From positions 62,001-126,000 of the forward strand of contig NZ_SJKD01000010.1 in the NCBI RefSeq assembly GCF_004331485.1: a stretch of 64,000 bases of DNA. Direction: 5' to 3'. Positions 10,423 to 20,819 of the stretch are shown here, in pieces; positions within the stretch are counted from its first letter, which is position 1, and every line of letters begins with the position of its first letter. This DNA comes from Kribbella capetownensis (GTDB lineage Bacteria > Actinomycetota > Actinomycetes > Propionibacteriales > Kribbellaceae). The translations under genes were made by a program, and so were the position numbers. The notes below the pieces were generated by a model that was not told where the DNA came from, did not search any database, and saw only the letters and a list, made by a program, of their open reading frames with translations.

Positions 10423-11217
10423 CTAGATCCAAGCGAGGCTGGTGGTGGTGTCGGTTGTTGGTTTGTACTCGCAGGCTGCGACGCCGTGGTAGCCCGCTGC
10501 CTTCAAGGCGTCCAGGGTCTCGTCGATCGGCAGGGAACCTGAGCCCGGCTCGCCGCGCCCCGGACTGTCGGCCAGCTGCACGTGCGCGACGCCAACCGTT
10601 GATGCAGTGGCGACGAGATCGACCCCGTTGCTGCCCAGGTGGAACGTGTCGAACAACATCGACAGATTGTCGACATCCTGCAATCGACCATCGAGCAGAG
10701 CGAGTACGTCGTCCGCGGTGCACAACGGATAGCGGCCGTTCAGACCCTTCGTGAGCGGCTCGATCAGCACGGTCCCGCCGATCCCCGCCACGGCGCCGGC
10801 TGCCGACCGGATCGCATCCGTCGCGCACAAGGCCTGCTCCGCGGGTGACCAGCGATCGTCGAGCTGGCCGTAGAGCAGGTTGAACAACCGGCAACCGGTC
10901 CGTTCCGCGATCGCCACGACGGCCCGGACGTTACCCGCGAGCTGATCCTGTCGATCGGGATGCGAGGCCACACCTCGTTCCCCGGCAGGGATGTCACCGC
11001 CGTAGAAGTTCAGCGCACCCAGCGCCACTCCCGCTGACTCGACCATCCGCACGAAGTCGTCGGTCTCGGCCGCGGACGGATCAGGTACGGCGAACGGCCA
11101 CCACGACTCGACGACGCGGAATCCGGCCTGCGCGGCAGCGGCGTACCGGTCCGGATAGGGCAGTTCGGTGAACAGCATCGAGACGTTCGCACTCAGCTCG
11201 TGACCCCGGTACTCCAT
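10423..11217 (-). CDS. hydroxypyruvate isomerase family protein (sugar phosphate isomerase/epimerase-like TIM barrel)
   Basis: The protein has 264 residues starting MEYRGHELSANVSMLFTELPY, which is the characteristic opening of the hydroxypyruvate isomerase branch of the xylose-isomerase-like TIM barrels. Metal-site acidic residues are visible in LIEPLTKG, MLFDTFHLG and ACEYKP. The expected reaction is hydroxypyruvate to tartronate semialdehyde in the cytoplasm. That would feed the reductase encoded at 13379, although sugar epimerase activity is equally possible for the fold. The gene diverges from the operon at 11298, sharing an 80-bp intergenic region with a GntR-type operator. An upstream ATG at 11268 exists but adds non-conserved residues. 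Confidence 0.8.
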   Translation of the reverse strand: MEYRGHELSANVSMLFTELPYPDRYAAAAQAGFRVVESWWPFAVPDPSAAETDDFVRMVESAGVALGALNFYGGDIPAGERGVASHPDRQDQLAGNVRAVVAIAERTGCRLFNLLYGQLDDRWSPAEQALCATDAIRSAAGAVAGIGGTVLIEPLTKGLNGRYPLCTADDVLALLDGRLQDVDNLSMLFDTFHLGSNGVDLVATASTVGVAHVQLADSPGRGEPGSGSLPIDETLDALKAAGYHGVAACEYKPTTDTTTSLAWI

Positions 11218-11257
11218 GATGAAAAGGCTAACACCAGCTCTTGCCAGTCGTGCACTC

Positions 11258-11268
11258 TTGTCTGACAA
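11258..11268. promoter_or_regulatory. candidate GntR/FadR-type operator in the divergent promoter
   Basis: TTGTCTGACAA fits the TNGTNNNACNA consensus known for FadR/FCD-subfamily GntR regulators exactly. It sits between the isomerase gene and the hydrolase operon, 29 bp before the ATG at 11298, where a bound repressor could block both promoters. The operon's own last gene encodes a GntR/FCD regulator. Confidence 0.55.
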
Positions 11269-11297
11269 TCTAAGGACCCGACGACTCCGGAGGCGCG

Positions 11298-13382
11298 ATG
11301 CACACCGAGCCCGAGCAGCAGGCCCCAGCCGCCGATTCCGATCCGGACTGGCCGTTGGCGGCCACGCGGTGGGCCCAGATCACGTTGGCCGAGGACGATC
11401 CCGCGCACTTCGACGCGGACTTCTGGTTGCAGTTGATGCGCGACAGCAAGTCGAACGCGACCTGCATCAGCGCCGGCGGGTACGTCGCCTACTACCCGAC
11501 CCGGCTCGAGTACCACCACCGCAGCAAATACCTCGGCGACACCGACCCGTTCGGCACCCTGGTCGAGGGCGCGCGCAGTCTCGGCATGAGCGTGATGGCG
11601 CGCGTCGACCCGCACGCGATCCACGCCGACGCGGCCGAGGCCCACCCGGAGTGGCTCGCCCGCGACCGCGACGGCAACCCGATCGAGCACTGGGCGTACC
11701 CCGGCATCTGGCTGACCTGCGCGTTCACGGCGTACCACCGGGAGTTCATCACCGACGTGATCCGAGAGATCGTCCGCGACTACGGCGTCGACGCGGTCTT
11801 CGCGAACCGGTGGGAGGGGTACTACGGCATCTCCTACAGCGAGGCGGCGCGCAAGTCGTTCCGCGACGAGAGCGGTCTCGAGTTGCCCGCCGCCGAGTAC
11901 GCCGAGGGCTGGCCGGAGTACGTCGCCTGGCGCCACCGGCGGCTCGGTGAACTCGTGGGCATCTGGGACCAGGCCGTTCGCGACCTCCGCCCGCACGCTC
12001 GCTTCGTCCCGAACCTGGGGGCACTCGCCGCGCGCGACCTGGCCCGCGATCTGGCCGAGCCACTCGCACCGCTGTTCATCATCGACAAACAAGGCCGGCA
12101 CGGCATCGAGGCGCCGTGGGCCGCGGGCCGCAACGGCAAGCGCAACCGCGGCGTCTTCCCGGATCGACCGGTTCGCCTGATCACCTCGGTCGGCCCGGAG
12201 CACCAGTACCGCTGGAAGGACTCGGTCGCGCCGGGCGAAGAGGTGAAGACCTGGATCGTCGACGGGTTCGCCCACGGTGCGCTGCCGTGGTTCACCAAGT
12301 TCAACGCGAGCGTGCCGGACCACCGCTGGGTGCAGCCGATTGTCGACGCCTTCAACCTGCACGCGACCGTCGAGCCGGTACTGCGGGACCTGCGCATCAC
12401 CGCCGAGGTGGCCCTGCTCGACCCGACCCGCACGGGCCAACTCCACGCCGGCGATCACGATCACGAGGACGGCTTCTACCACGCACTGGTCGAGGCACGA
12501 GTCCCGTTCGAGTTCGTCTCCGACCAACTCCTGTCCGCCGAACGACTCAGCCCGTTCAAGCTCGTCGTCCTCGCGAACGCCGAGCAACTCAGCGACGACC
12601 AGTGTGCGGTCCTGCGTGAGTACGTCGCCCATGGCGGCTCGCTCGTGGCGTCGTACCAGAGCTCGTTGTACGACGGACAGGGGCAAGCGCGGGCGGACTT
12701 CGGCCTCGGGGATGTACTCGGGGTACGGCTGAGCGAGCCGAGTCGCGCGGTGAAGAACAACTACATCGCGCTGATGGACGAGCATCCGCTGAACGCGGGG
12801 TTCGAGGGAACGACCCGCATCATTGGCGGGACCAACATCCTGGGCGTCGAGGTGACCGGAGTCGTTCCGTGGAGGTTCATTCCCGACTTCCCCGATCTGC
12901 CGATGGAGGAGGTCTATCCGCGGGAGGCGCCGGACCGGCCAGCGGTGATCTGCACCGAGAACGCGAACGGCGGCCGGACGGTCTACTTCCCATTCAACCT
13001 CGGCGCGATCTTCTGGGAGGCGCTCCAGTCCGATCACGGCCGGCTGATCGCGAACGCGGTCGGCTGGGCGCTCGGCAAGGCGCCGGAGGTGAGCGTCGAG
13101 GGCGCCGGCCTGGTCGATGTCGCGGTCCATCGCGGTGACACCGGCGTGGCCGTTGCCCTGGTCAACCTGACGAACCCGATGGCGATGCGCGGCCCGATCC
13201 GCGAGACCCTCCCGCTGCCACCGCAGCGGGTGTCGATCGCCGTACCGGATCGGCCGCTGAAAGCGCGGCTGCTGGTCGCCGGCGTGGACGTCGAGCCGAT
13301 GGTCGCGAACGGTCGTGCGGAGATCGTCATCCCGACCGCGGGACTGCTCGAGGTCGTGCACGTGGAGTGGGGCGACGCATGA
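11298..13382 (+). CDS. predicted glycoside hydrolase, GHL6-like TIM barrel with GH42-type trimerisation domain
   Basis: This 694-residue protein lacks a signal peptide, so it is cytoplasmic. Residues about 20-350 look like a hypothetical glycosyl hydrolase 6 (GHL6) barrel, with ATCISAGGYVAYYPTRLEYH, GMSVMARVDPHAIH, AEAHPEWLARDRDGNP and DAVFANRWEGYYG. Residues about 390-600 resemble the beta-galactosidase trimerisation fold (LVVLANAEQLSDDQCAVLREY, GGSLVASYQS, GRTVYFPFNLG). A small beta domain ends the protein. GGAGG lies 5 bp before the ATG. It is the first gene of an overlapping operon and a distant paralogue of the protein encoded at 14224. Its sugar substrate is unknown; import by the ABC system downstream is inferred. 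Confidence 0.78.
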   Translation: MHTEPEQQAPAADSDPDWPLAATRWAQITLAEDDPAHFDADFWLQLMRDSKSNATCISAGGYVAYYPTRLEYHHRSKYLGDTDPFGTLVEGARSLGMSVMARVDPHAIHADAAEAHPEWLARDRDGNPIEHWAYPGIWLTCAFTAYHREFITDVIREIVRDYGVDAVFANRWEGYYGISYSEAARKSFRDESGLELPAAEYAEGWPEYVAWRHRRLGELVGIWDQAVRDLRPHARFVPNLGALAARDLARDLAEPLAPLFIIDKQGRHGIEAPWAAGRNGKRNRGVFPDRPVRLITSVGPEHQYRWKDSVAPGEEVKTWIVDGFAHGALPWFTKFNASVPDHRWVQPIVDAFNLHATVEPVLRDLRITAEVALLDPTRTGQLHAGDHDHEDGFYHALVEARVPFEFVSDQLLSAERLSPFKLVVLANAEQLSDDQCAVLREYVAHGGSLVASYQSSLYDGQGQARADFGLGDVLGVRLSEPSRAVKNNYIALMDEHPLNAGFEGTTRIIGGTNILGVEVTGVVPWRFIPDFPDLPMEEVYPREAPDRPAVICTENANGGRTVYFPFNLGAIFWEALQSDHGRLIANAVGWALGKAPEVSVEGAGLVDVAVHRGDTGVAVALVNLTNPMAMRGPIRETLPLPPQRVSIAVPDRPLKARLLVAGVDVEPMVANGRAEIVIPTAGLLEVVHVEWGDA

Positions 13383-14227
13383 GGATCGGGTTCATCGGCC
13401 TCGGCGTGATGGGTCGTCCGATGGTCGACAATCTGATTGTTGCCGGGCATGACCTGTCGGTCTACCGCGGCCGGACCGAGGTCGAGGCGCACGTGTGCGG
13501 GTCGGGCAAGGAGGTCGCGGAGCGGTCCGAGGTCGTGATCCTCATGGTCCCGGACACACCGGACGTCGAGTCGGCGCTGTTCGCGCCGGGCGGAGTCGCC
13601 GAAGGGCTGCAGCGGGGCTCGCTGGTGATCGACATGAGCTCGATCTCGCCGACCGCGACCGCCGGATTCGCAGAGCGGATCGACCAACTGGGCTGCGACT
13701 ACCTCGATGCACCGGTGTCGGGTGGGGAGGTCGGCGCGCGGGAAGCGACCCTGACGATCATGGTCGGCGGCCGGCCGGAGGTATTCGAGCGAGCCCGCCC
13801 GATCTTCGAGACGCTCGGCAAGAACATCACCCTGATCGGCGGCGCGGGCGCCGGCCAGACCGCGAAGGTCGCGAACCAGATCGTCGTCGCGCTGACCATC
13901 GAGGCCGTGGCTGAGGCGCTGCTGTTCGCCAAAGCCGCCGGCGCGGATCCGGCGATCGTTCGCGAGGCGTTGATGGGCGGCTTCGCGAGTTCGCGGATCC
14001 TCGAGTTGCACGGCGAGCGGATGGTGAAGCAGACCTTCGATCCAGGGTTCCGGATCCGCTTGCACCGCAAGGATCTCGGCCTCGCCGTGCAGGCCGCCGC
14101 CGAGCTCGACCTCGCCCTGCCCAACACGGCCGCGACCCAGCAGTTGATGAACGCCGCGATCGCGGACGGCGACGGCGACCTCGACCACTCCGCGCTGTAC
14201 CGCACGCTGCGCCGGGGGCCGGCATGA
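13379..14227 (+). CDS. NAD-binding beta-hydroxyacid dehydrogenase (tartronate semialdehyde reductase-like)
   Basis: The protein has 282 residues and starts with ATGA overlap at the previous stop. The family signature is MRIGFIGLGVMGRPMVDNL at residues 1-19, the substrate motif DAPVSGGEVGA, and GGAGAGQTAKVANQI with the catalytic lysine. It belongs to the 6-phosphogluconate/3-hydroxyisobutyrate dehydrogenase superfamily and most resembles GarR/GlxR, which reduce tartronate semialdehyde to D-glycerate. The presence of a hydroxypyruvate-isomerase-like gene in the same locus supports that reaction but does not prove it. The next gene also overlaps by 4 bp. Confidence 0.85.
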   Translation: MRIGFIGLGVMGRPMVDNLIVAGHDLSVYRGRTEVEAHVCGSGKEVAERSEVVILMVPDTPDVESALFAPGGVAEGLQRGSLVIDMSSISPTATAGFAERIDQLGCDYLDAPVSGGEVGAREATLTIMVGGRPEVFERARPIFETLGKNITLIGGAGAGQTAKVANQIVVALTIEAVAEALLFAKAAGADPAIVREALMGGFASSRILELHGERMVKQTFDPGFRIRLHRKDLGLAVQAAAELDLALPNTAATQQLMNAAIADGDGDLDHSALYRTLRRGPA

Positions 14228-16059
14228 GGCTCTGGTGGCACGATCCGTTCCGGATGTTCCAGACCAACCTGCGCGAGATCGACGCCGGGCTGGACGTGGA
14301 GAAGGTGCTGGACTATCTGGAGGAGTTCGGGGCCAACACCTGGCTGCTGAGCGTCGGCGGGATCCTCTCGAACTATCCGACCGACCTCGACTTCCAGACC
14401 CGCAACCCGCACTTGGCCGAGCGTCCGTCCGGCGACCTGGTCGGCGACGCGGTGAAGGCGGCCGCGCGGCGCGGGATCCGGGTGATGGGCCGGATGGACT
14501 TCTCCAAGATCGACCACCGCCGGGCCGAGGCACACCCGGACTGGTGCTTCGTCGGACCGGACGGCGCGCGCCAGGTCTACAACGGCCTGACCAGCGTCTG
14601 CCCGAGCGGCGACTACTACCAGGCCAAGTTGTTCGAGGTCCTCGACGAGGTCCTCGATCGCTACCCACTCGACGGCTTCTTCTGCAACTGGATGTCGTTC
14701 AACGAGGTCGACTACAGCCGCGTGTACCACGGCGTCTGCCACTGCGTGTCGTGCCAGGAGCGGTACGACGGTCCGCTGCCGGACGGGCGGAATTCGCCGG
14801 GCTATGAGGACTGGCAACTGTTCTCGAAAGCAGTTCTGGCCGATCTCACGCAGCGGATCCGGGATCACCTCGCGGCACGCCGGCCCGAGGCGCCGCTGGT
14901 GCTCGGCGACCAGGCCGACATCGTGTTCCACGAGGCGAACAACGCCGTCGGCCGTCCGCTGTGGCACCACCGCACCAGTGAGGCCGTGAGTGCCGCGAAG
15001 ACCTACCGCCCGACGGTCCCGGTGCTGACGAACTCGGTCGGCTTCGTGGACATGCCGTACCGGATGGCGAGCGAGGACCCTCAGCACTTCGCGCAGTACT
15101 TGCTCCAGGCAATCGCTCGCGGCGCGAACCCGTCGACGTACATCATGGGGACGCCGTCGGACAATCCGTACGCGTGCCTGCAGGTCGCGGGGGAGTTGAC
15201 GAGGTTCCATCGCGATCACCAGGACGTCTATCGAGACCTCGTGCCGGCCGCCGAAACTCTGCTGGTCAGGCCGAAGGAAGGCTCGACGCCGGAGTTCCGG
15301 GGGCTCTACCTGTCGTTGCTCCAGCGTCATGTCCCGTTCGATGTGCTGCCGGCGGAGCGGCTTCATGATGTCGACCTGGGCCGCTATCGGGTGGTCGGGC
15401 TTCCGGATCTCGGACCGGTTGACCTCGGGAGCTACATCGGCGGGATCGTTGCCACGGGCGCCACCGAGGTGGCGCGACTGCCCGTACGACGGCTGGCTGG
15501 CTACACGACGGAGGAGGACACACGCTCGCTGCATCTCGAGGGCGGGGTGCCGGTGTTCGGTGCGTTTCACGTCGTGGAGCCGCCAACTGGTGCTGAGGTC
15601 GGTCTGCTCGCGCTGTCCAGAGCGCCGTACGGGCCGCCGGAGAAATGTCACGGGCACGTGCAGCTCGAGCATCCGGGGGTCGTCAGGCGTGAAAACACAG
15701 TGTTGTTCCCGTGGACCATCGGGCGTTCGTACCGCGAGGTCGGGCTGGGCGTGCACCGGGATCTGTTGGTCGACGAGGTGATCAGGGCCGGAGGGACGTC
15801 AATGGAGACGGACCTGCCGGAGCAGATCGAGATCGTGCTGGGCCGGTCCGCGGCCGGGACGGTCGTGCATCTGCTGAACAGATCGGGGGATACCGACCAG
15901 CGGTTCGCTCCGCCCGTCCCCGTCGGTCCGGCGCGGCTACGGCTGCCGGACGGCGTGCGGGAAGTCGAAGCGCTGCGGTCCGGTGAGCACCTGCCGGTGA
16001 CCGACGGCTGGGTGCAGCTACCGGAGATCGGGTTGTTCGAAGTACTGGTCTGTGTGTGA
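14224..16059 (+). CDS. predicted glycoside hydrolase, GHL6-like, second paralogue
   Basis: This 611-residue cytoplasmic protein starts at an ATGA overlap. The barrel shows the same landmarks as the gene at 11298: NTWLLSVGGILSNYPTDL, GIRVMGRMDFSKID, AEAHPDWCFVGPDG and DGFFCNWMSFNEVDYSRVYH. It adds a cysteine cluster, CHCVSC, absent from the first paralogue. A middle domain resembling the trimerisation fold follows, then a beta-rich tail. Two dissimilar members in one operon suggest sequential or linkage-specific cleavage of one imported oligosaccharide (inference). No signal peptide is present. Confidence 0.75.
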   Translation: MRLWWHDPFRMFQTNLREIDAGLDVEKVLDYLEEFGANTWLLSVGGILSNYPTDLDFQTRNPHLAERPSGDLVGDAVKAAARRGIRVMGRMDFSKIDHRRAEAHPDWCFVGPDGARQVYNGLTSVCPSGDYYQAKLFEVLDEVLDRYPLDGFFCNWMSFNEVDYSRVYHGVCHCVSCQERYDGPLPDGRNSPGYEDWQLFSKAVLADLTQRIRDHLAARRPEAPLVLGDQADIVFHEANNAVGRPLWHHRTSEAVSAAKTYRPTVPVLTNSVGFVDMPYRMASEDPQHFAQYLLQAIARGANPSTYIMGTPSDNPYACLQVAGELTRFHRDHQDVYRDLVPAAETLLVRPKEGSTPEFRGLYLSLLQRHVPFDVLPAERLHDVDLGRYRVVGLPDLGPVDLGSYIGGIVATGATEVARLPVRRLAGYTTEEDTRSLHLEGGVPVFGAFHVVEPPTGAEVGLLALSRAPYGPPEKCHGHVQLEHPGVVRRENTVLFPWTIGRSYREVGLGVHRDLLVDEVIRAGGTSMETDLPEQIEIVLGRSAAGTVVHLLNRSGDTDQRFAPPVPVGPARLRLPDGVREVEALRSGEHLPVTDGWVQLPEIGLFEVLVCV

Positions 16060-16069
16060 GGAGAGCGAG

Positions 16070-17377
16070 ATGGATCGTCGAGGATTTCTCAAGCTGTCAC
16101 TGGCCACAGGACTCTCGGCGGCCACTGTGGCCACCGCGGCCGGGTGCAGTGGTGGCAGTGGTGGGCCGTCGGGTGACGGCGGGAACGTGACACTGCGCTA
16201 TGCGTGGTGGGGCAACAACATCCGGCAGCAGAACTACACCAAGGCGCTGAAGCAGTTCAGTACGGCAAACCCGTCGATCGCGATCGAGCCGGAGTTCGCG
16301 GAGTACACCGCGTTCCAGGAACGGATGACGACCCAGATCGCGGCGCGCGACGTACCGGACATCTTCTGGATCGCGTCGCCGCAGGTGATGACGTACCACA
16401 AGAGCAAGCTGTACCGGAAGCTGGACGACATCCCGACGCTGAACTGGGGTGACTACAGCAAGGAAGACCAGGAGACGTTCAAGCTGGCCGGCGAGCTGAA
16501 CACGTTGCCGTTCGCAATCTTCACGCCGGTGATCCGCTACAACGAGACCGTCACCAAGGCCGACGGTGTCACGATCCCGGCCGAGGGACCGGGCTGGACC
16601 TGGGACAGCCTGGCCGAGCTGCTCATTGCCTACAGCAAGAACAACTCCGGCCAGCGGAAGGGTACGCCGTACGCACCGGACCACGACCTGACCTTCGAGG
16701 CGTGGCTGCGGCAGCGAGGCGAGCAGCTGTGGACCGAGGACGGTCGGGCGGGGTTCACCGTTGACGGACTGGCGAGCTGGCTCGACTGGTGGGAGAAGCT
16801 GCGCAAGGCCGGCGGCGCGCTGTCGCTCAGCGAGCAGGAGGGGATGGGCCCGGACTGGGCACAGGTGGGGAAGAAGGTCCTGGTGAACTTCGGCAACTCC
16901 AACCACATCATCGACGACGCGAAGATGTTCCCGAAGGAGAAGTTCCGGCTGCGCGCGGCGCCGATCGCGCCGACCGCGGCGGCCGGCCACAAGTACCTGT
17001 ACTTCCCGCGGATGGCGATCTACCAGCGGATCGACGACGCCAACCTCGAGGCGGCGGGCAAGGTGCTCGACTACAACGCGAACAACCCCGAGATGCTGAA
17101 GACGGTCCGGCTGACCATGGGCGCGCCGACGAACCCGAAGGTGGCCGAGCAGGCGAAGGCGTTCGCCAGCCCGGACGAGAAGGAGATGCTCGCGGTCGTC
17201 GAGAAGGAGCGGGCCGCCGAGCGCAAGCCGCGCTACGAGGCACCGCCCGGATCGAGCACCTGGCGGACGACGATGACGCGGATCTGCGAGGAGATCGCGC
17301 TCGGCAAGACCAGTGTCCCGGACGGCGCGAAGAAGTTGCTCGATGACGTGAACGCCGGGATCAAGCGGGCCGCATGA
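16070..17377 (+). CDS. ABC sugar-type extracellular solute-binding lipoprotein (family 1)
   Basis: The protein has 435 residues from the ATG at 16070, preceded by AGGAGAG. The N-terminus is a Tat-style lipoprotein signal: DRRGFLKLS, then a hydrophobic core ending TAAGC. The mature part has the family-1 layout with VTLRYAWWGNN at the start, DIFWIASPQVMTYH, LPFAIFTPVIRYNE and a tryptophan-rich ligand region. It captures the substrate outside the cell for the two permeases encoded immediately downstream, with a 4-bp overlap. The ligand is presumably an oligosaccharide or glycoside related to the two hydrolases. Confidence 0.92.
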   Translation: MDRRGFLKLSLATGLSAATVATAAGCSGGSGGPSGDGGNVTLRYAWWGNNIRQQNYTKALKQFSTANPSIAIEPEFAEYTAFQERMTTQIAARDVPDIFWIASPQVMTYHKSKLYRKLDDIPTLNWGDYSKEDQETFKLAGELNTLPFAIFTPVIRYNETVTKADGVTIPAEGPGWTWDSLAELLIAYSKNNSGQRKGTPYAPDHDLTFEAWLRQRGEQLWTEDGRAGFTVDGLASWLDWWEKLRKAGGALSLSEQEGMGPDWAQVGKKVLVNFGNSNHIIDDAKMFPKEKFRLRAAPIAPTAAAGHKYLYFPRMAIYQRIDDANLEAAGKVLDYNANNPEMLKTVRLTMGAPTNPKVAEQAKAFASPDEKEMLAVVEKERAAERKPRYEAPPGSSTWRTTMTRICEEIALGKTSVPDGAKKLLDDVNAGIKRAA

Positions 17378-18288
17378 GGTCGCGGTCAGCCAATGCAAAG
17401 GTGCACAGCCACCTCAATCGCCAGGGGAGGGCGGCGCATGTCTTCCTGATTCCCTGGCAGCTGGGCTTCCTGCTGATCACCGCGGTGCCGTTGTTCGCGT
17501 CGCTCTACCTGGCGTTCACGAACTACGACATCCTCAACCCGCCGGAGTGGACCGGGCTGGAGAACTTCCAGAGGATGATCCACGACGACCAGTTCTGGGC
17601 CTCGGTGAAGGTGACCCTGATCTACGTCGTGGTGTCGGTGCCGCTGCAACTCGGCTTCGCGTTGCTGCTGGCACTGATCCTCGACCGTGGGCTGAGTGGA
17701 CTCGCGTTCTACCGCAGCGCGTTCTACCTGCCCTCGTTGCTGGGCTCGAGCGTCGCGATCGCGATCCTGTGGCGGGAGATCTTCGGCGACGACGGACTGA
17801 TCAACAAGGGTCTGGCGTTGATCGGGATCCACGGCGAGAGCTGGCTGCAGAATCCGAAGACCGCCCTGGCCACGTTGATCGTGCTGAACGTCTGGACGTT
17901 CGGTTCTCCGATGGTGATCTTCCTGGCCGGCCTGCGGCAGATTCCGGACGAGCTGTACGAGGCGGCGAAGGTCGACGGTGCCGGGGTGTGGCGGCAGTTC
18001 ACCCACGTGACGGTGCCGCTGCTCACACCGATCATCTTCTTCAACCTGATCCTGCAGACGATCGGTGCGTTCCAGACCTTCACCCAGGCGCACATCATCA
18101 GCGGCGGCACCGGCGGCCCGGCCAACTCGACGCTGTTCTACACGCTGTACGTGTACCAGCAGGGCTTCGTTGCCTTCGACATGGGCTACGCGTCCGCGCT
18201 CGCCTGGGTGCTGATGGTGGCGATCGCTGTGGTCACCGCATTGCATTTCCTGGTCTCGAAGTACTGGGTCTTCTACGGAGACAGCTGA
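17374..18288 (+). CDS. ABC transporter permease, MalF-like
   Basis: The protein has 304 residues and six predicted membrane helices. The EAA loop is clear (ELYEAAKVDGAGVWRQF, then TVPLLTPII). This loop is where the cytoplasmic ATPase docks. It starts in the stop of the binding-protein gene, and its own stop shares one base with the next ATG. The import system has no ATPase gene in the locus, so a shared MsiK-type ATPase elsewhere in the genome is the likely motor. Confidence 0.92.
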   Translation: MRSRSANAKVHSHLNRQGRAAHVFLIPWQLGFLLITAVPLFASLYLAFTNYDILNPPEWTGLENFQRMIHDDQFWASVKVTLIYVVVSVPLQLGFALLLALILDRGLSGLAFYRSAFYLPSLLGSSVAIAILWREIFGDDGLINKGLALIGIHGESWLQNPKTALATLIVLNVWTFGSPMVIFLAGLRQIPDELYEAAKVDGAGVWRQFTHVTVPLLTPIIFFNLILQTIGAFQTFTQAHIISGGTGGPANSTLFYTLYVYQQGFVAFDMGYASALAWVLMVAIAVVTALHFLVSKYWVFYGDS

Positions 18289-19166
18289 TGGCGACTCTGA
18301 CCGCAGGTGAAGTGATCAGCAGCCCGGCGCCGGTCCGGCAAGGCCGGTTCCGGTCCGTCCTGAAGCACACCGGGCTGCTGGTCTTCGTGGCGTTCATGAT
18401 CTATCCGCTGGTGTGGATGGTGGTGAGCGCGTTCAAACCGCCCGAGCAGATCCTGACCGAGCCGGGCATCATCCCGTCCGACCTGACGTTCGAGAACTTC
18501 AAGGAAGGCTGGCACGCGCTGAACCGGCCGTTCTCGGTGTTCTTCGTCAACTCGCTGATCGTCACCCTTGGGTCGATTGCCGGCAATCTGTTCTCGTGCT
18601 CGTTGACGGCGTACGCACTGGCTCGGCTGCAGTTCCGGATGCGGAAGGTGTACTTCGCGATCACGCTGGCCTCGGTGATGCTGCCGTTCCACGTGCTGGT
18701 GATCCCGCAGTACATCTTCTTCTCCCAGCTCGACCTGGTGAACACGTACTGGCCACTGCTGATCCCGAAGTTCCTGGCCACCGACGCGTTCTTCGTCTTC
18801 TTGATGGTGCAGTTCATCCGGACCCTGCCGCGCGAGCTCGACCGGGCCGCCTGGATCGACGGCGCCGGCCCGTTCCTGACCTTCTGGTACGTCGTCCTGC
18901 CGTTGATGCGGCCGGCGTTGGTGACCACCACGATCTTCACGTTCATCTGGACGTGGAACGATTTCTTCGTACCGTTGATCTACCTGACCAGGACGAAGGT
19001 GTTCACCGTGCCGGTGGCGCTGAACTCCATGGTCGATTCCGAGACCCAGAGTGGGGTGGGCATGCTGTTCGCGATGTCGTTGCTGTCGCTGGTTCCGATC
19101 CTGATCTTCTTCGCGGTCGCGCAGAAGTACCTGATCCGCGGGATCGCGACGACGGGGCTGAAGTGA
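18288..19166 (+). CDS. ABC transporter permease, MalG-like
   Basis: The protein has 292 residues from the ATG at 18288, which overlaps the upstream TGA by one base. The open frame runs much further upstream, but that part is a shadow of the MalF-like gene. Six membrane helices and the EAA loop ELDRAAWIDGAGPFLTFWYV, then VLPLMRP, identify the second permease of a carbohydrate importer (CUT1 type). Confidence 0.92.
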   Translation: MATLTAGEVISSPAPVRQGRFRSVLKHTGLLVFVAFMIYPLVWMVVSAFKPPEQILTEPGIIPSDLTFENFKEGWHALNRPFSVFFVNSLIVTLGSIAGNLFSCSLTAYALARLQFRMRKVYFAITLASVMLPFHVLVIPQYIFFSQLDLVNTYWPLLIPKFLATDAFFVFLMVQFIRTLPRELDRAAWIDGAGPFLTFWYVVLPLMRPALVTTTIFTFIWTWNDFFVPLIYLTRTKVFTVPVALNSMVDSETQSGVGMLFAMSLLSLVPILIFFAVAQKYLIRGIATTGLK

Positions 19167-20083
19167 TGAGGATCGTTGTGGTGGGCAAAGAGTCGCCGGT
19201 GTACGTCGAGGCGGCCGCCGGCGCCGAGCTGCGGTTCGTCGACTCCCTCGACGATGCGTCGGACCTGTTCGGCGAGATGGAGGCCGTGATCGGCCGGGTG
19301 CCGCCGCCTGTGCTGGCGAAGGCGCCGAAGCTGCGGTGGGTGCACAGTCCGTCTGCCGGTGTCGACGCCGACCTGACGCCGGAGATGCTGGCGTCACCGG
19401 TGGTGCTGACGTCGAGTGCGGGCAACGGCGGCATCTCGCTGGCCGAGCATTCGCTGCTGCTGATGCTCATGCTGGACCGTGACGTGCCGCGCTGGATGCG
19501 GGCGCAGGGCGAGCACCGCTGGGACCACTTCCTGCACAGCGAGCTGTCCGGCCAGACGGTCGGCATCTACGGTCTCGGCAACTCCGGCATCGATCTCGCG
19601 CAGAAGGCGAAGGCGTTCCACATGCGGGTTCTCGGCGTACGTCGTCGCCCGGAGCAACCATCGCCGTACGTCGACGAGTTGTGCTCACTGGATCAGTTGC
19701 TGGCCGAATCGGACTTCGTCGTGGTCACCGCACCACGAACGCCATCGACGGCTGGAGTGTTCGACCGGGACGCGTTCGCGCGGATGAAGTCGTCGGCGTA
19801 CTTCATCTGCATCTCCCGCGGCGGGATCGCGGACGACGACGCGTTGCTGGAGGCGTTGCAGACCGGGCAGATCGCGGGGGCCGGGCTGGACGCGCACGGC
19901 GTGGAACCGTTGCCGCCGGAGAGCCCGTTCTGGTCGTTGCCCAACGTCATCGTGACGCCACACAACGGAGCCACCAGCACCGGTACGAGGCGCCGAAGCC
20001 AGGAGATCGTGGCCGAGAATCTGCGGCGTTTCGTCGCCGGTGAACCGCTGCACAACATCGTCGACAAGTCCGCCGGATATTAG
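19166..20083 (+). CDS. D-2-hydroxyacid dehydrogenase (NAD-dependent)
   Basis: The protein has 305 residues from the ATG at 19166, overlapping the preceding TGA by one base. The nucleotide motif is GIYGLGNSGIDLAQKAKAF near residues 130-148. Catalytic-region motifs are VVTAPRTPST, FICISRGGIADDDALLEAL and VIVTPHNGATS with the active-site histidine. The family reduces 2-oxoacids such as hydroxypyruvate or glyoxylate, or oxidises the D-hydroxyacids. In this operon it offers a second route between hydroxypyruvate and D-glycerate (inference). Confidence 0.87.
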   Translation: MRIVVVGKESPVYVEAAAGAELRFVDSLDDASDLFGEMEAVIGRVPPPVLAKAPKLRWVHSPSAGVDADLTPEMLASPVVLTSSAGNGGISLAEHSLLLMLMLDRDVPRWMRAQGEHRWDHFLHSELSGQTVGIYGLGNSGIDLAQKAKAFHMRVLGVRRRPEQPSPYVDELCSLDQLLAESDFVVVTAPRTPSTAGVFDRDAFARMKSSAYFICISRGGIADDDALLEALQTGQIAGAGLDAHGVEPLPPESPFWSLPNVIVTPHNGATSTGTRRRSQEIVAENLRRFVAGEPLHNIVDKSAGY

Positions 20084-20099
20084 TGCCACGCCCGTACAC

Positions 20100-20110
20100 T
20101 TGCCTGACCA
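20100..20110. promoter_or_regulatory. second GntR-type operator-like site, before the regulator gene
   Basis: TTGCCTGACCA matches 10 of 11 letters' worth of constraint in TNGTNNNACNA (one mismatch at the fourth position) and keeps the CTGAC core of the site at 11258. It lies 22 bp before the GTG of the GntR gene, a natural autoregulatory position. Confidence 0.4.
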
Positions 20111-20132
20111 GTTGGATTCCACAGGGGGTGCA

Positions 20133-20819
20133 GTGAGTACCGAAGCGCGCCTGGAGCTCGGGCCGTCCTCGCTGACCGATGCGCTGTACGAGTCGGTTCG
20201 CAAACGGATCGTGAACGGTGAGATCCCGCAGGGCGAGAAGCTCACCGAGGTCCGGCTGGCCACCGAGTACAACGTGGCCCGGCCGACCGCGAAGGCGGCG
20301 CTGGAGCGACTCACCGCACTCGGCCTGCTCCGGCGTACCGCGCACAAGACGGCGGTCGTTCCGGTGCTCGACCAGGCCGAGATCCGGGACCTGTTCTTCA
20401 GCCGGATGACGATCGAGAAGGCGGCGGTGTCCGCGCTGGCCGCGACCGGTGAGGTGCCGGTCGATGCGGCCCGCGCGCAGGTGGCGATCGAGTACGCCGC
20501 TCGCGACCGCCTCTTCGAGAACCAGGTCGAGGCGGACATCGCGTTCCACACCGCGTTGGTCGCCGCGGTCGGGAGCCGGCGGTTGTCCCGGATGCACGAG
20601 CTGATCATCGGCGAGGTGCACCTGACGATGGGCCAGTACCAGGCCCACCGGAAGGCCGCGCCGACCACCGTGGCCGAGGAACACGCCGCCATCCTCAAGG
20701 CGATCGAGGACGGCAACCCCGACGCTGCCGCCGACCATCTCGCCTACCACCTCGAGCAGGCCCAAGGCCGGCTGCTCACCACGCTGCAGCAGGCGTCAGA
20801 CGAGGTCGTGGCGCAGTAG
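20133..20819 (+). CDS. GntR-family regulator, FCD (FadR) subfamily
   Basis: The protein has 228 residues from the GTG at 20133, preceded by AGGGGGTGCA; a longer frame from 20040 is not protein-like. The N-terminal winged helix (LTDALYESVRKRIVNGEI, then KLTEVRLATEYNVARPTAKAAL) is followed by an all-helical FCD ligand domain with metal-binding-type acidic and histidine residues (EADIAFHTALV, AEEHAAILKAI, HLAYHLEQ). It is the probable local repressor of the carbohydrate operon, relieved by a sugar acid or related intermediate. The 3' end overlaps the convergent reductase gene by 24 bp. Confidence 0.9.
   Translation: MSTEARLELGPSSLTDALYESVRKRIVNGEIPQGEKLTEVRLATEYNVARPTAKAALERLTALGLLRRTAHKTAVVPVLDQAEIRDLFFSRMTIEKAAVSALAATGEVPVDAARAQVAIEYAARDRLFENQVEADIAFHTALVAAVGSRRLSRMHELIIGEVHLTMGQYQAHRKAAPTTVAEEHAAILKAIEDGNPDAAADHLAYHLEQAQGRLLTTLQQASDEVVAQ

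Follow-up and report, generated by a model that had tools for sequence, protein, structure and literature searches.

We analyzed a 64,000-nucleotide window of the Kribbella capetownensis genome (contig C1, positions 62001-126000, of host genome G000; gene coordinates below are those of the window), in which nine genes form a cluster at positions 10423-20819. Eight of the genes lie on the plus strand and one, encoding a hydroxypyruvate isomerase-like protein (HPI), is divergent on the minus strand. The others encode two proteins of the GHL6 family (A and B, the first and second in order), a tartronate semialdehyde (2-hydroxy-3-oxopropionate) reductase (TSR), the solute-binding protein (SBP) and two permeases (P1 and P2) of a CUT1-type importer, a D-2-hydroxyacid dehydrogenase (DH), and a GntR-type regulator (GntR). 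The cluster recurs in other actinobacteria, and we give about an even chance to the reading that it is a transport-and-catabolism operon for an acid-bearing glycoside, in which A and B free a three-carbon acid that HPI, TSR and DH convert to D-glycerate.

In the pathway that we infer, the importer would take up an intact glycoside carrying a short acid, and A (core) and B (accessory) would hydrolyze it in the cytoplasm to yield the three-carbon acid. The released acid would most likely be tartronate semialdehyde (TSA), accompanied by hydroxypyruvate, the tautomer that forms from it spontaneously. TSR would convert TSA to D-glycerate, HPI would return hydroxypyruvate to TSA, and DH would provide a direct reduction of hydroxypyruvate. 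Glycolysis would then be entered through a glycerate kinase whose gene lies elsewhere in the Kribbella genome.

The nine genes recur together

We searched genome contigs with A, which gave 55 loci, and compared the nine window proteins with these loci by tblastn (E ≤ 1e-8). The closest named relative of A was in a Kribbella pittospori locus (95% identity). Of the 55 loci, 15, from six actinobacterial genera, had homologues of all nine genes side by side: seven of the 11 Kribbella loci, all four Nonomuraea loci, and one locus each from Phytoactinopolyspora, Auraticoccus, Isoptericola and Ruania. Because the nine genes recur together in this way, the cluster is more than a chance association and is a real unit. 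The initial annotation had proposed looking for the same gene order in other genomes; the order was identical in the seven complete Kribbella loci, but was rearranged in the eight complete loci from the other genera.

Other loci keep part of the set. Three Kribbella loci (L011, L012 and L052) have A, TSR, DH and GntR, with HPI as well in L011 and L012, and are without B and the transporter; in a fourth, L013, only HPI is absent. In L050, GntR, HPI and A run up to the end of the locus, and TSR, B, a permease and DH are on another contig of the same genome (L103). Because L011, L012 and L052, and likewise L041 and L042, keep A without B, A is the core of the system and B is an optional, accessory component. 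Within the genus, 13 of 38 genomes, including the host, gave a B score above 900 bits; among 396 genomes drawn from the phylum, four had any match at 1e-30, the host again being one of them.

We noted several other genes around these loci. Large related proteins (47% identity over 155 amino acids) that are GH2-like by eye are encoded near the operon in two genera (L020:21603-22103 and L022:19782-21653), and are possible handlers of the sugar part. An RraA-like aldolase gene (L105:5312-6148) lies directly 3' of A in actinobacterium G257, and genes for a cytochrome c and a pyrroloquinoline quinone-dependent dehydrogenase (L025:12111-14464) lie directly 3' of A in an Acidobacteriota bin.

A and B have a GH151-like fold with Asn at the nucleophile position

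A (11298-13382, 694 amino acids) and B (14224-16059, 611 amino acids), both encoded on the plus strand, passed the curated cut-off of 35 bits for GHL6 (PF14871), with 61.3 and 116.8 bits, respectively. They are only distantly related (22% identity), as had been proposed. Their original label of GHL6/GH42-trimerisation proteins stood for the GHL6 part, but the GH42 trimerisation domain was just below threshold in A (24.8 bits; cut-off 25.8) and was not matched by B at E 0.001. The two models can nevertheless be superposed on three-domain enzymes with a GH42-trimerisation-type architecture. There was no export signal by eye in either protein, and both are predicted to be cytoplasmic.

Sequence searches of the PDB with A and B as single queries gave weak matches only, the best at E 0.015 and 0.041, respectively. 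The AlphaFold models were good (mean confidence, pLDDT, of 88 for A and 87 for B), and for both the best structural match among those listed was the GH151 alpha-L-fucosidase ALfuk2 (6tvk), with a Z score of 31.6 for A (625 residues aligned, root mean square deviation 3.2) and 29.8 for B (560 residues, 3.7). The runners-up scored 24.7 for A, to a PgaB C-terminal domain only, and 24.1 for B, to a GH42 enzyme. The three domains of GH151, a barrel, a Rossmann-like middle domain and a beta-sandwich, are present in both models. Membership of GH42 or GH164 was set aside for A and B since both families ranked behind GH151, as did, for A, PgaB C-terminal domains and Cwp19, which matched the barrel only.

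A study of ALfuk2 (PMC10154630) places the nucleophile, D154, at the end of strand 4 and the acid/base, E235, at the end of strand 6. In profile alignments D154 corresponds to Asn170 of A and Asn155 of B, with an ALfuk2 numbering offset of 29 that was inferred from its lengths of 689 and 660 residues. Asn was present at this position in 29 of 29 aligned A sequences, 16 of 16 B sequences, and all 21 sequences of a wider set that includes a malate synthase-linked group and other relatives. The strand-6 column of the wider set held Asp or Glu in 20 of 21 sequences, the exception being L114. Other polar residues at strand ends were also invariant (D104, D263 and R267 in A; D92 and E237 in B). D263 and E237 are at the end of the strand that we took as strand 6, a region that the residue-level alignment with 6tvk did not reach. 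When 296 genomes from the phylum of the host were searched with a fragment, no relative from GH151 was found, a result that shows nothing by itself and because of which the acid/base position could not be aligned by sequence.

Despite the matching fold, we did not file A and B in GH151, because an invariant Asn occupies the position of the Asp nucleophile. Since this Asn is invariant and the acidic strand-6 residue nearly so, the Asn-type GHL6 proteins look like a coherent family with an active site of their own. The same replacement would also fit if A and B were catalytically dead or otherwise non-hydrolytic proteins with the GH151 fold (for binding, or as a lyase or isomerase), with hydrolysis done elsewhere. 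We consider this very improbable, as the pattern is unlike decay: the strand-end residues listed above are invariant in A and in B, and Asn and the acidic residue persist through the wider set.

The small-acid enzymes were probably recruited more than once

TSR (13379-14227, plus strand) scored 362 bits against TIGR01505, above the curated cut-off of 340.75, in agreement with its first assignment. HPI (10423-11217, minus strand) has the AP_endonuc_2 fold (PF01261, 97.5 bits), and its best solved relatives are YgbM (1k77) and 3ngf. Hydroxypyruvate isomerase is its nearest family, as first assigned, but HPI fell under the equivalog cut-off of TIGR03234 (210.5 bits; cut-off 353.45). The host's own gcl-linked HPI copy also fell under it (277.9 bits), so this cut-off does not discriminate here. 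DH (19166-20083, plus strand) is glyoxylate/hydroxypyruvate reductase-like (PF02826, 177.8 bits) and matched 21 NCBIfam models of the 2-hydroxyacid dehydrogenase type, none of them above cut-off.

TSR and HPI are activities expected of the glyoxylate (gcl) route, which we rejected for the window locus since none of the nine genes encodes a glyoxylate carboligase (Pfam and NCBIfam searches) and only one of 13 other host genomes, that of Isoptericola, has one above cut-off. The best score in Nonomuraea, 699.7, was just below the cut-off of 711.2, and Nonomuraea probably has the enzyme. The gcl, glxR and hyi genes of the window genome are on another contig (C11:529-532 kb). Because most of the 13 hosts are without a carboligase above cut-off, HPI and TSR should in most of them serve another source of three-carbon acid, with A as their partner. 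The acid enzymes probably handle a product released by the hydrolases rather than breakdown of the sugar itself.

The TSR and HPI of Nonomuraea locus L015 were 76% and 66% identical to the gcl-linked GlxR and Hyi of Kribbella and 48% and 47% identical to the window pair, while Nonomuraea A was 67-68% identical to window A. From these identities, the Nonomuraea pair was most likely recruited separately. The sphingomonad HPIs form another clade, split from the actinobacterial HPIs by a long, fully supported branch, and the sphingomonad TSRs were 58-64% identical to window TSR. These comparisons indicate that the link to small acids was assembled more than once and with the same two activities.

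A report on Pseudomonas aeruginosa GlxR (PMC12694930) states that the enzyme favors TSA over hydroxypyruvate, that TSA can undergo spontaneous tautomerisation, and that the resulting loss may be limited by Hyi. Because of this preference, the tautomerisation and the role of Hyi, TSA would be the likelier primary product of A and B.

A candidate operator lies between HPI and A

GntR (20133-20819, plus strand; PF07729 and PF00392) is a GntR-FCD transcriptional regulator, and a candidate FadR-type operator, TTGTCTGACAA, is located at 11258-11268 in the intergenic region between HPI and A. The strict pattern TTGTNNNACAA, which we take to fit FadR-type GntR operators, has this as its sole site in the window. 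We scanned 23 loci (482 kb; 22 actinobacterial loci and L018 of the Thermomicrobiales) and found 25 sites, 16 of them just upstream of A, seven upstream of SBP and two elsewhere; SBP was placed from the tblastn matches, the placement in L010 was worked out by hand, and the counts are not independent because the Kribbella loci are closely related. The strict pattern was missing from seven of the 23 loci (L018, L020, L021, L022, L028, L050 and L058), and looser variants were seen by eye in L020, L021, L022, L050 and L058. We infer that GntR would repress through TTGTCTGACAA and that an acid intermediate would lift the repression.

Loci of alphaproteobacteria and other phyla

Nine A loci are alphaproteobacterial. 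An HPI-type gene and a MOFRL glycerate 2-kinase gene were each found in seven of the nine, TSR and an LctP permease in six each, and B in four; L053 and L059 have none of these five, and L054 is cut inside A. The sphingomonad locus L043 also has a TonB-dependent receptor and a GntR-FCD regulator, and its LctP scored 421 bits (cut-off 341). Two Acidobacteriota loci, L046 and L047, are alone among 21 other loci in having an SSS permease nearby; that of L046 is nearest to the monocarboxylate permease MctP, at 254 bits and below the cut-off of 625. By eye, A often starts with a twin-arginine-like leader in sphingomonads and Acidobacteriota, whereas in actinobacteria a cytoplasmic A is mostly accompanied by an ABC importer. 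Leader-bearing A with a monocarboxylate-type permease and cytoplasmic A with an importer are the arrangements that release of a small monocarboxylic acid by A would lead one to expect. The chemistry proposed for Kribbella would then take place in the periplasm of sphingomonads and some Acidobacteriota, with the acid entering by the permease. Between TSR and A of a sphingomonad (L129:8623-10932) is a gene for a 769-amino-acid protein that has a twin-arginine-like leader and no Pfam match at 1e-6.

We determined how often A and HPI occur together in 298 Sphingomonadaceae genomes. A scored above 850 bits in six genomes and gave some match at 1e-60 in 10; an HPI-type gene scored above 280 bits in 11 and was found at 1e-40 in 26, none above the family cut-off. 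All six A genomes have an HPI-type gene within 4 kb of A, compared to five of the 292 others with HPI above 280 bits (Fisher p = 5e-10); three of the six (G396, G397 and G398) were anchors known beforehand, and without them the unbiased count is three of three (about 1e-5, calculated by hand). In G480 the copy of A within 4 kb of HPI is the lower-scoring of two (885 bits). G546, one of four genomes with only a weaker A match, is also among the eleven HPI genomes.

These partners bear on a different explanation, in which A and B free an ordinary sugar or uronic acid, and the HPI-like, TSR-like and DH proteins act as the isomerase and dehydrogenases for it along an uncharted non-phosphorylative route to a three-carbon acid. 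The three-carbon enzymes would then follow the sugar and not a freed acid. The AP_endonuc_2 and beta-hydroxyacid dehydrogenase families are broad; window HPI does not reach its cut-off, Pfam and NCBIfam revealed neither a sugar kinase nor an aldolase among the nine genes, and an RraA-like aldolase is beside A in one related locus (L105). We nevertheless judge this explanation unlikely, given that gcl-type GlxR and Hyi fill the same role in Nonomuraea, that TSR is above its curated cut-off, and that sphingomonads pair A with a MOFRL glycerate kinase and a monocarboxylate-type permease. The initial annotation had pointed to a route through hydroxypyruvate or tartronate semialdehyde to D-glycerate with no sugar kinase, and this proposal is supported and is strengthened by the sphingomonad glycerate 2-kinase and lactate-type permease. 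Its suggestion of plant glycosides or uronic acids as substrates found no specific support. Routes through D-apiose or tartrate were considered and dropped; no such enzyme was recognized among the nine genes.

Relatives with two- and four-carbon partners

The host has a second GHL6 operon (L060; G000:C11:84000-103000) that encodes a LacI regulator, a CUT1 importer, a 486-amino-acid protein without a Pfam match at 1e-5, an Asn-type GHL6 protein 32% identical to A, and, at its end, malate synthase. Malate synthase was also present in all four other Kribbella regions fetched and in a Desertihabitans region (L116), and was absent from four regions with a 52-66% identical relative (L107, L113, L115, and L117, which ends soon after the gene). 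A sphingomonad locus, L130, combines two GHL6 genes with LctP, malate synthase G, glycerate kinase homologues and a GlcD-like oxidase that scored below cut-offs. Two sphingomonads have OtnK, OtnC and DenD above their respective cut-offs, next to an A-like gene in L132 and next to a B-like gene in L128. L128 additionally has TSR, a glycerate kinase, and OtnI above its cut-off, the OtnI test covering L128 only. DenD was above cut-off in two of the 298 Sphingomonadaceae genomes, which are the hosts of L128 and L132 and were both known before the search. Because relatives adjoin malate synthase (a two-carbon partner) or D-erythronate genes (four-carbon partners), the wider A/B family may free short sugar acids.

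We weighed two further substrate classes. If A and B hydrolyzed glycosides of short aldonic acids (glycosyl-glycerate, -glycolate or -erythronate), the acid freed by the window enzymes would be D-glycerate. Examples of such glycosides are reducing ends shortened by oxidation and the osmolyte glucosylglycerate, for which a mycobacterial hydrolase is already known (PMC6608630). This class would fit the glycerate kinase and lactate-type permease of sphingomonads, the D-erythronate genes that neighbor A-like and B-like genes in G480 and G546, and the presence in G562 of LctP, malate synthase G and a GlcD-like oxidase (below cut-offs) next to two GHL6 genes. However, D-glycerate needs neither TSR nor HPI, yet A is usually accompanied by both in actinobacteria and sphingomonads, and the mycobacterial glucosylglycerate hydrolase belongs to another family, GH63. 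We therefore consider this class quite unlikely and keep glucosylglycerate only as an alternative of this kind.

The second class consists of ring-opened, oxidized (seco) sugar residues, of which the Asn-type GHL6 proteins would be the first hydrolases. A 3,4-opened hexose residue would give TSA and D-glycerate (for TSR, HPI and glycerate kinase), a 2,3-opened residue would give glyoxylate and D-erythronate (for malate synthase and for DenD, OtnI, OtnK and OtnC), and the substrate's own carboxylate would replace the missing Asp nucleophile. This idea covers the two-, three- and four-carbon partners together and is drawn purely from their pattern, and we regard it as decidedly unlikely. A coccolith study (PMC6117730) reports a natural polymer of this sort, the polysaccharide PS-2, which is proposed to contain meso-tartaric and glyoxylic acid derived from glucuronic acid by C2-C3 oxidation.

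Evidence weighing against a three-carbon acid

Several observations count against the proposal that A and B free a three-carbon acid for HPI, TSR and DH. Three of 23 actinobacterial loci (L021, L028 and L037) are without TSR or HPI near A. The main evidence against a general three-carbon rule comes from the 21 A loci outside the actinobacteria, alphaproteobacteria and Thermomicrobiales, namely 19 of Acidobacteriota type, one of Rhodanobacteraceae and one from a Thermoguttaceae bin. Twelve of these loci are shorter than 15 kb, and 18 of the 21 had no TSR or HPI match. Of the remaining three, L046 and L047 hold only a 35%-identical TSR relative, and L027 holds only a partial HPI-type match (41% over 122 amino acids). 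The HPI of L043 passes the cut-off for 2-oxo-tetronate isomerase (343 bits; cut-off 325) and not that for hydroxypyruvate isomerase (321; cut-off 353), a score pattern that argues against taking the three-carbon reading as certain. HPI occurs in five sphingomonad genomes that have no A above 850 bits. Within the operon, the roles of TSR, HPI and DH overlap in part, as all lead to one product, there is no enzyme for the sugar part, and a glycerate kinase of the MOFRL class, the one class sought, was absent from the window and from the 23 actinobacterial loci. Finally, the Asn replacement could mean that A and B are not hydrolases.

Layout of the transporter genes and gene junctions

SBP (16070-17377, plus strand; PF13416, 71.8 bits) is an extracellular solute-binding lipoprotein, with a lipobox-like stretch, TAAGCSG, seen by eye. 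P1 (17374-18288, plus strand) is an ABC permease of the MalF/UgpA type and P2 (18288-19166, plus strand) of the MalG/UgpE type; both matched PF00528, and their scores to UgpA (97.7 bits for P1) and GlcU (137.6 bits for P2) were below cut-off. For P2 and DH, the ranges used in the Pfam and NCBIfam searches began one codon ahead of the starts given here. These searches found no ATPase gene for the importer among the nine genes. The open reading frames and family matches agree with the initial annotation in gene content and order, including the divergent HPI-like gene and the ATPase-less importer.

The annotation also stated that nearly every junction overlaps by 1-4 bp, which held for five of the seven plus-strand junctions (A/TSR, TSR/B and SBP/P1, 4 bp each; P1/P2 and P2/DH, 1 bp each) but not for the other two. 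B and SBP are separated by 10 nt if SBP starts at ATG 16070, or overlap by 8 bp from GTG 16052. DH and GntR are separated by 49 nt from GTG 20133, or overlap by 44 bp from the alternative GTG start at 20040. An alternative, longer TTG start of HPI at 11268 would overlap the candidate operator.

Significance and comparison with known systems

No published description of the operon was found in the open-licence PubMed Central (PMC) literature, with GHL6/PF14871, the enzyme set, GH151, seco-polysaccharide, erythronate and acid glycosides as subjects, and the earlier statement that no named pathway has this composition stood in that literature. In at least two phyla, short-acid metabolism is thereby linked to an uncharacterized branch of a glycosidase family, and the same parts were put together separately. 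If the proposed pathway is correct, A and B would have a new specificity, amounting to a new enzyme activity, and probably a new catalytic arrangement with Asn in place of the Asp nucleophile. Soil bacteria would then use acid-bearing or oxidized sugars that present annotation overlooks. The substrates and products predicted by the genes are testable.

Among known enzymes, those of GH151 (ALfuk2, Mfuc3 and Blon_0346) are the most alike, since both models matched GH151 best in structure and with a clear lead. A report on Mfuc3 (PMC4723247) gives significant matches of that protein to GHL6 and the middle domain of A4 beta-galactosidase. A and B differ from GH151 in having Asn where ALfuk2 has D154, in their low identity to ALfuk2 (16-18% in the structural alignments), and in that no fucose-related gene was recognized among the nine window genes. 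The second Kribbella operon, on contig C11, has a similar layout and the same Asn-type GHL6, but has malate synthase in place of TSR and HPI and the extra 486-amino-acid protein. The D-erythronate/L-threonate pathway (DenD, OtnI, OtnK and OtnC) is represented by genes in the related loci L128 and L132, whereas OtnK, OtnC and DenD are absent from the nine window genes. The gcl-hyi-glxR-glxK cluster (P. aeruginosa PA1498-PA1502 and the Escherichia coli allantoin pathway) shares the TSR and HPI activities expected of the window locus, which differs in having no glyoxylate carboligase, and Kribbella keeps its gcl-glxR-hyi genes separately. Sphingomonad loci such as L043 resemble the gcl cluster, with GHL6 and without gcl.

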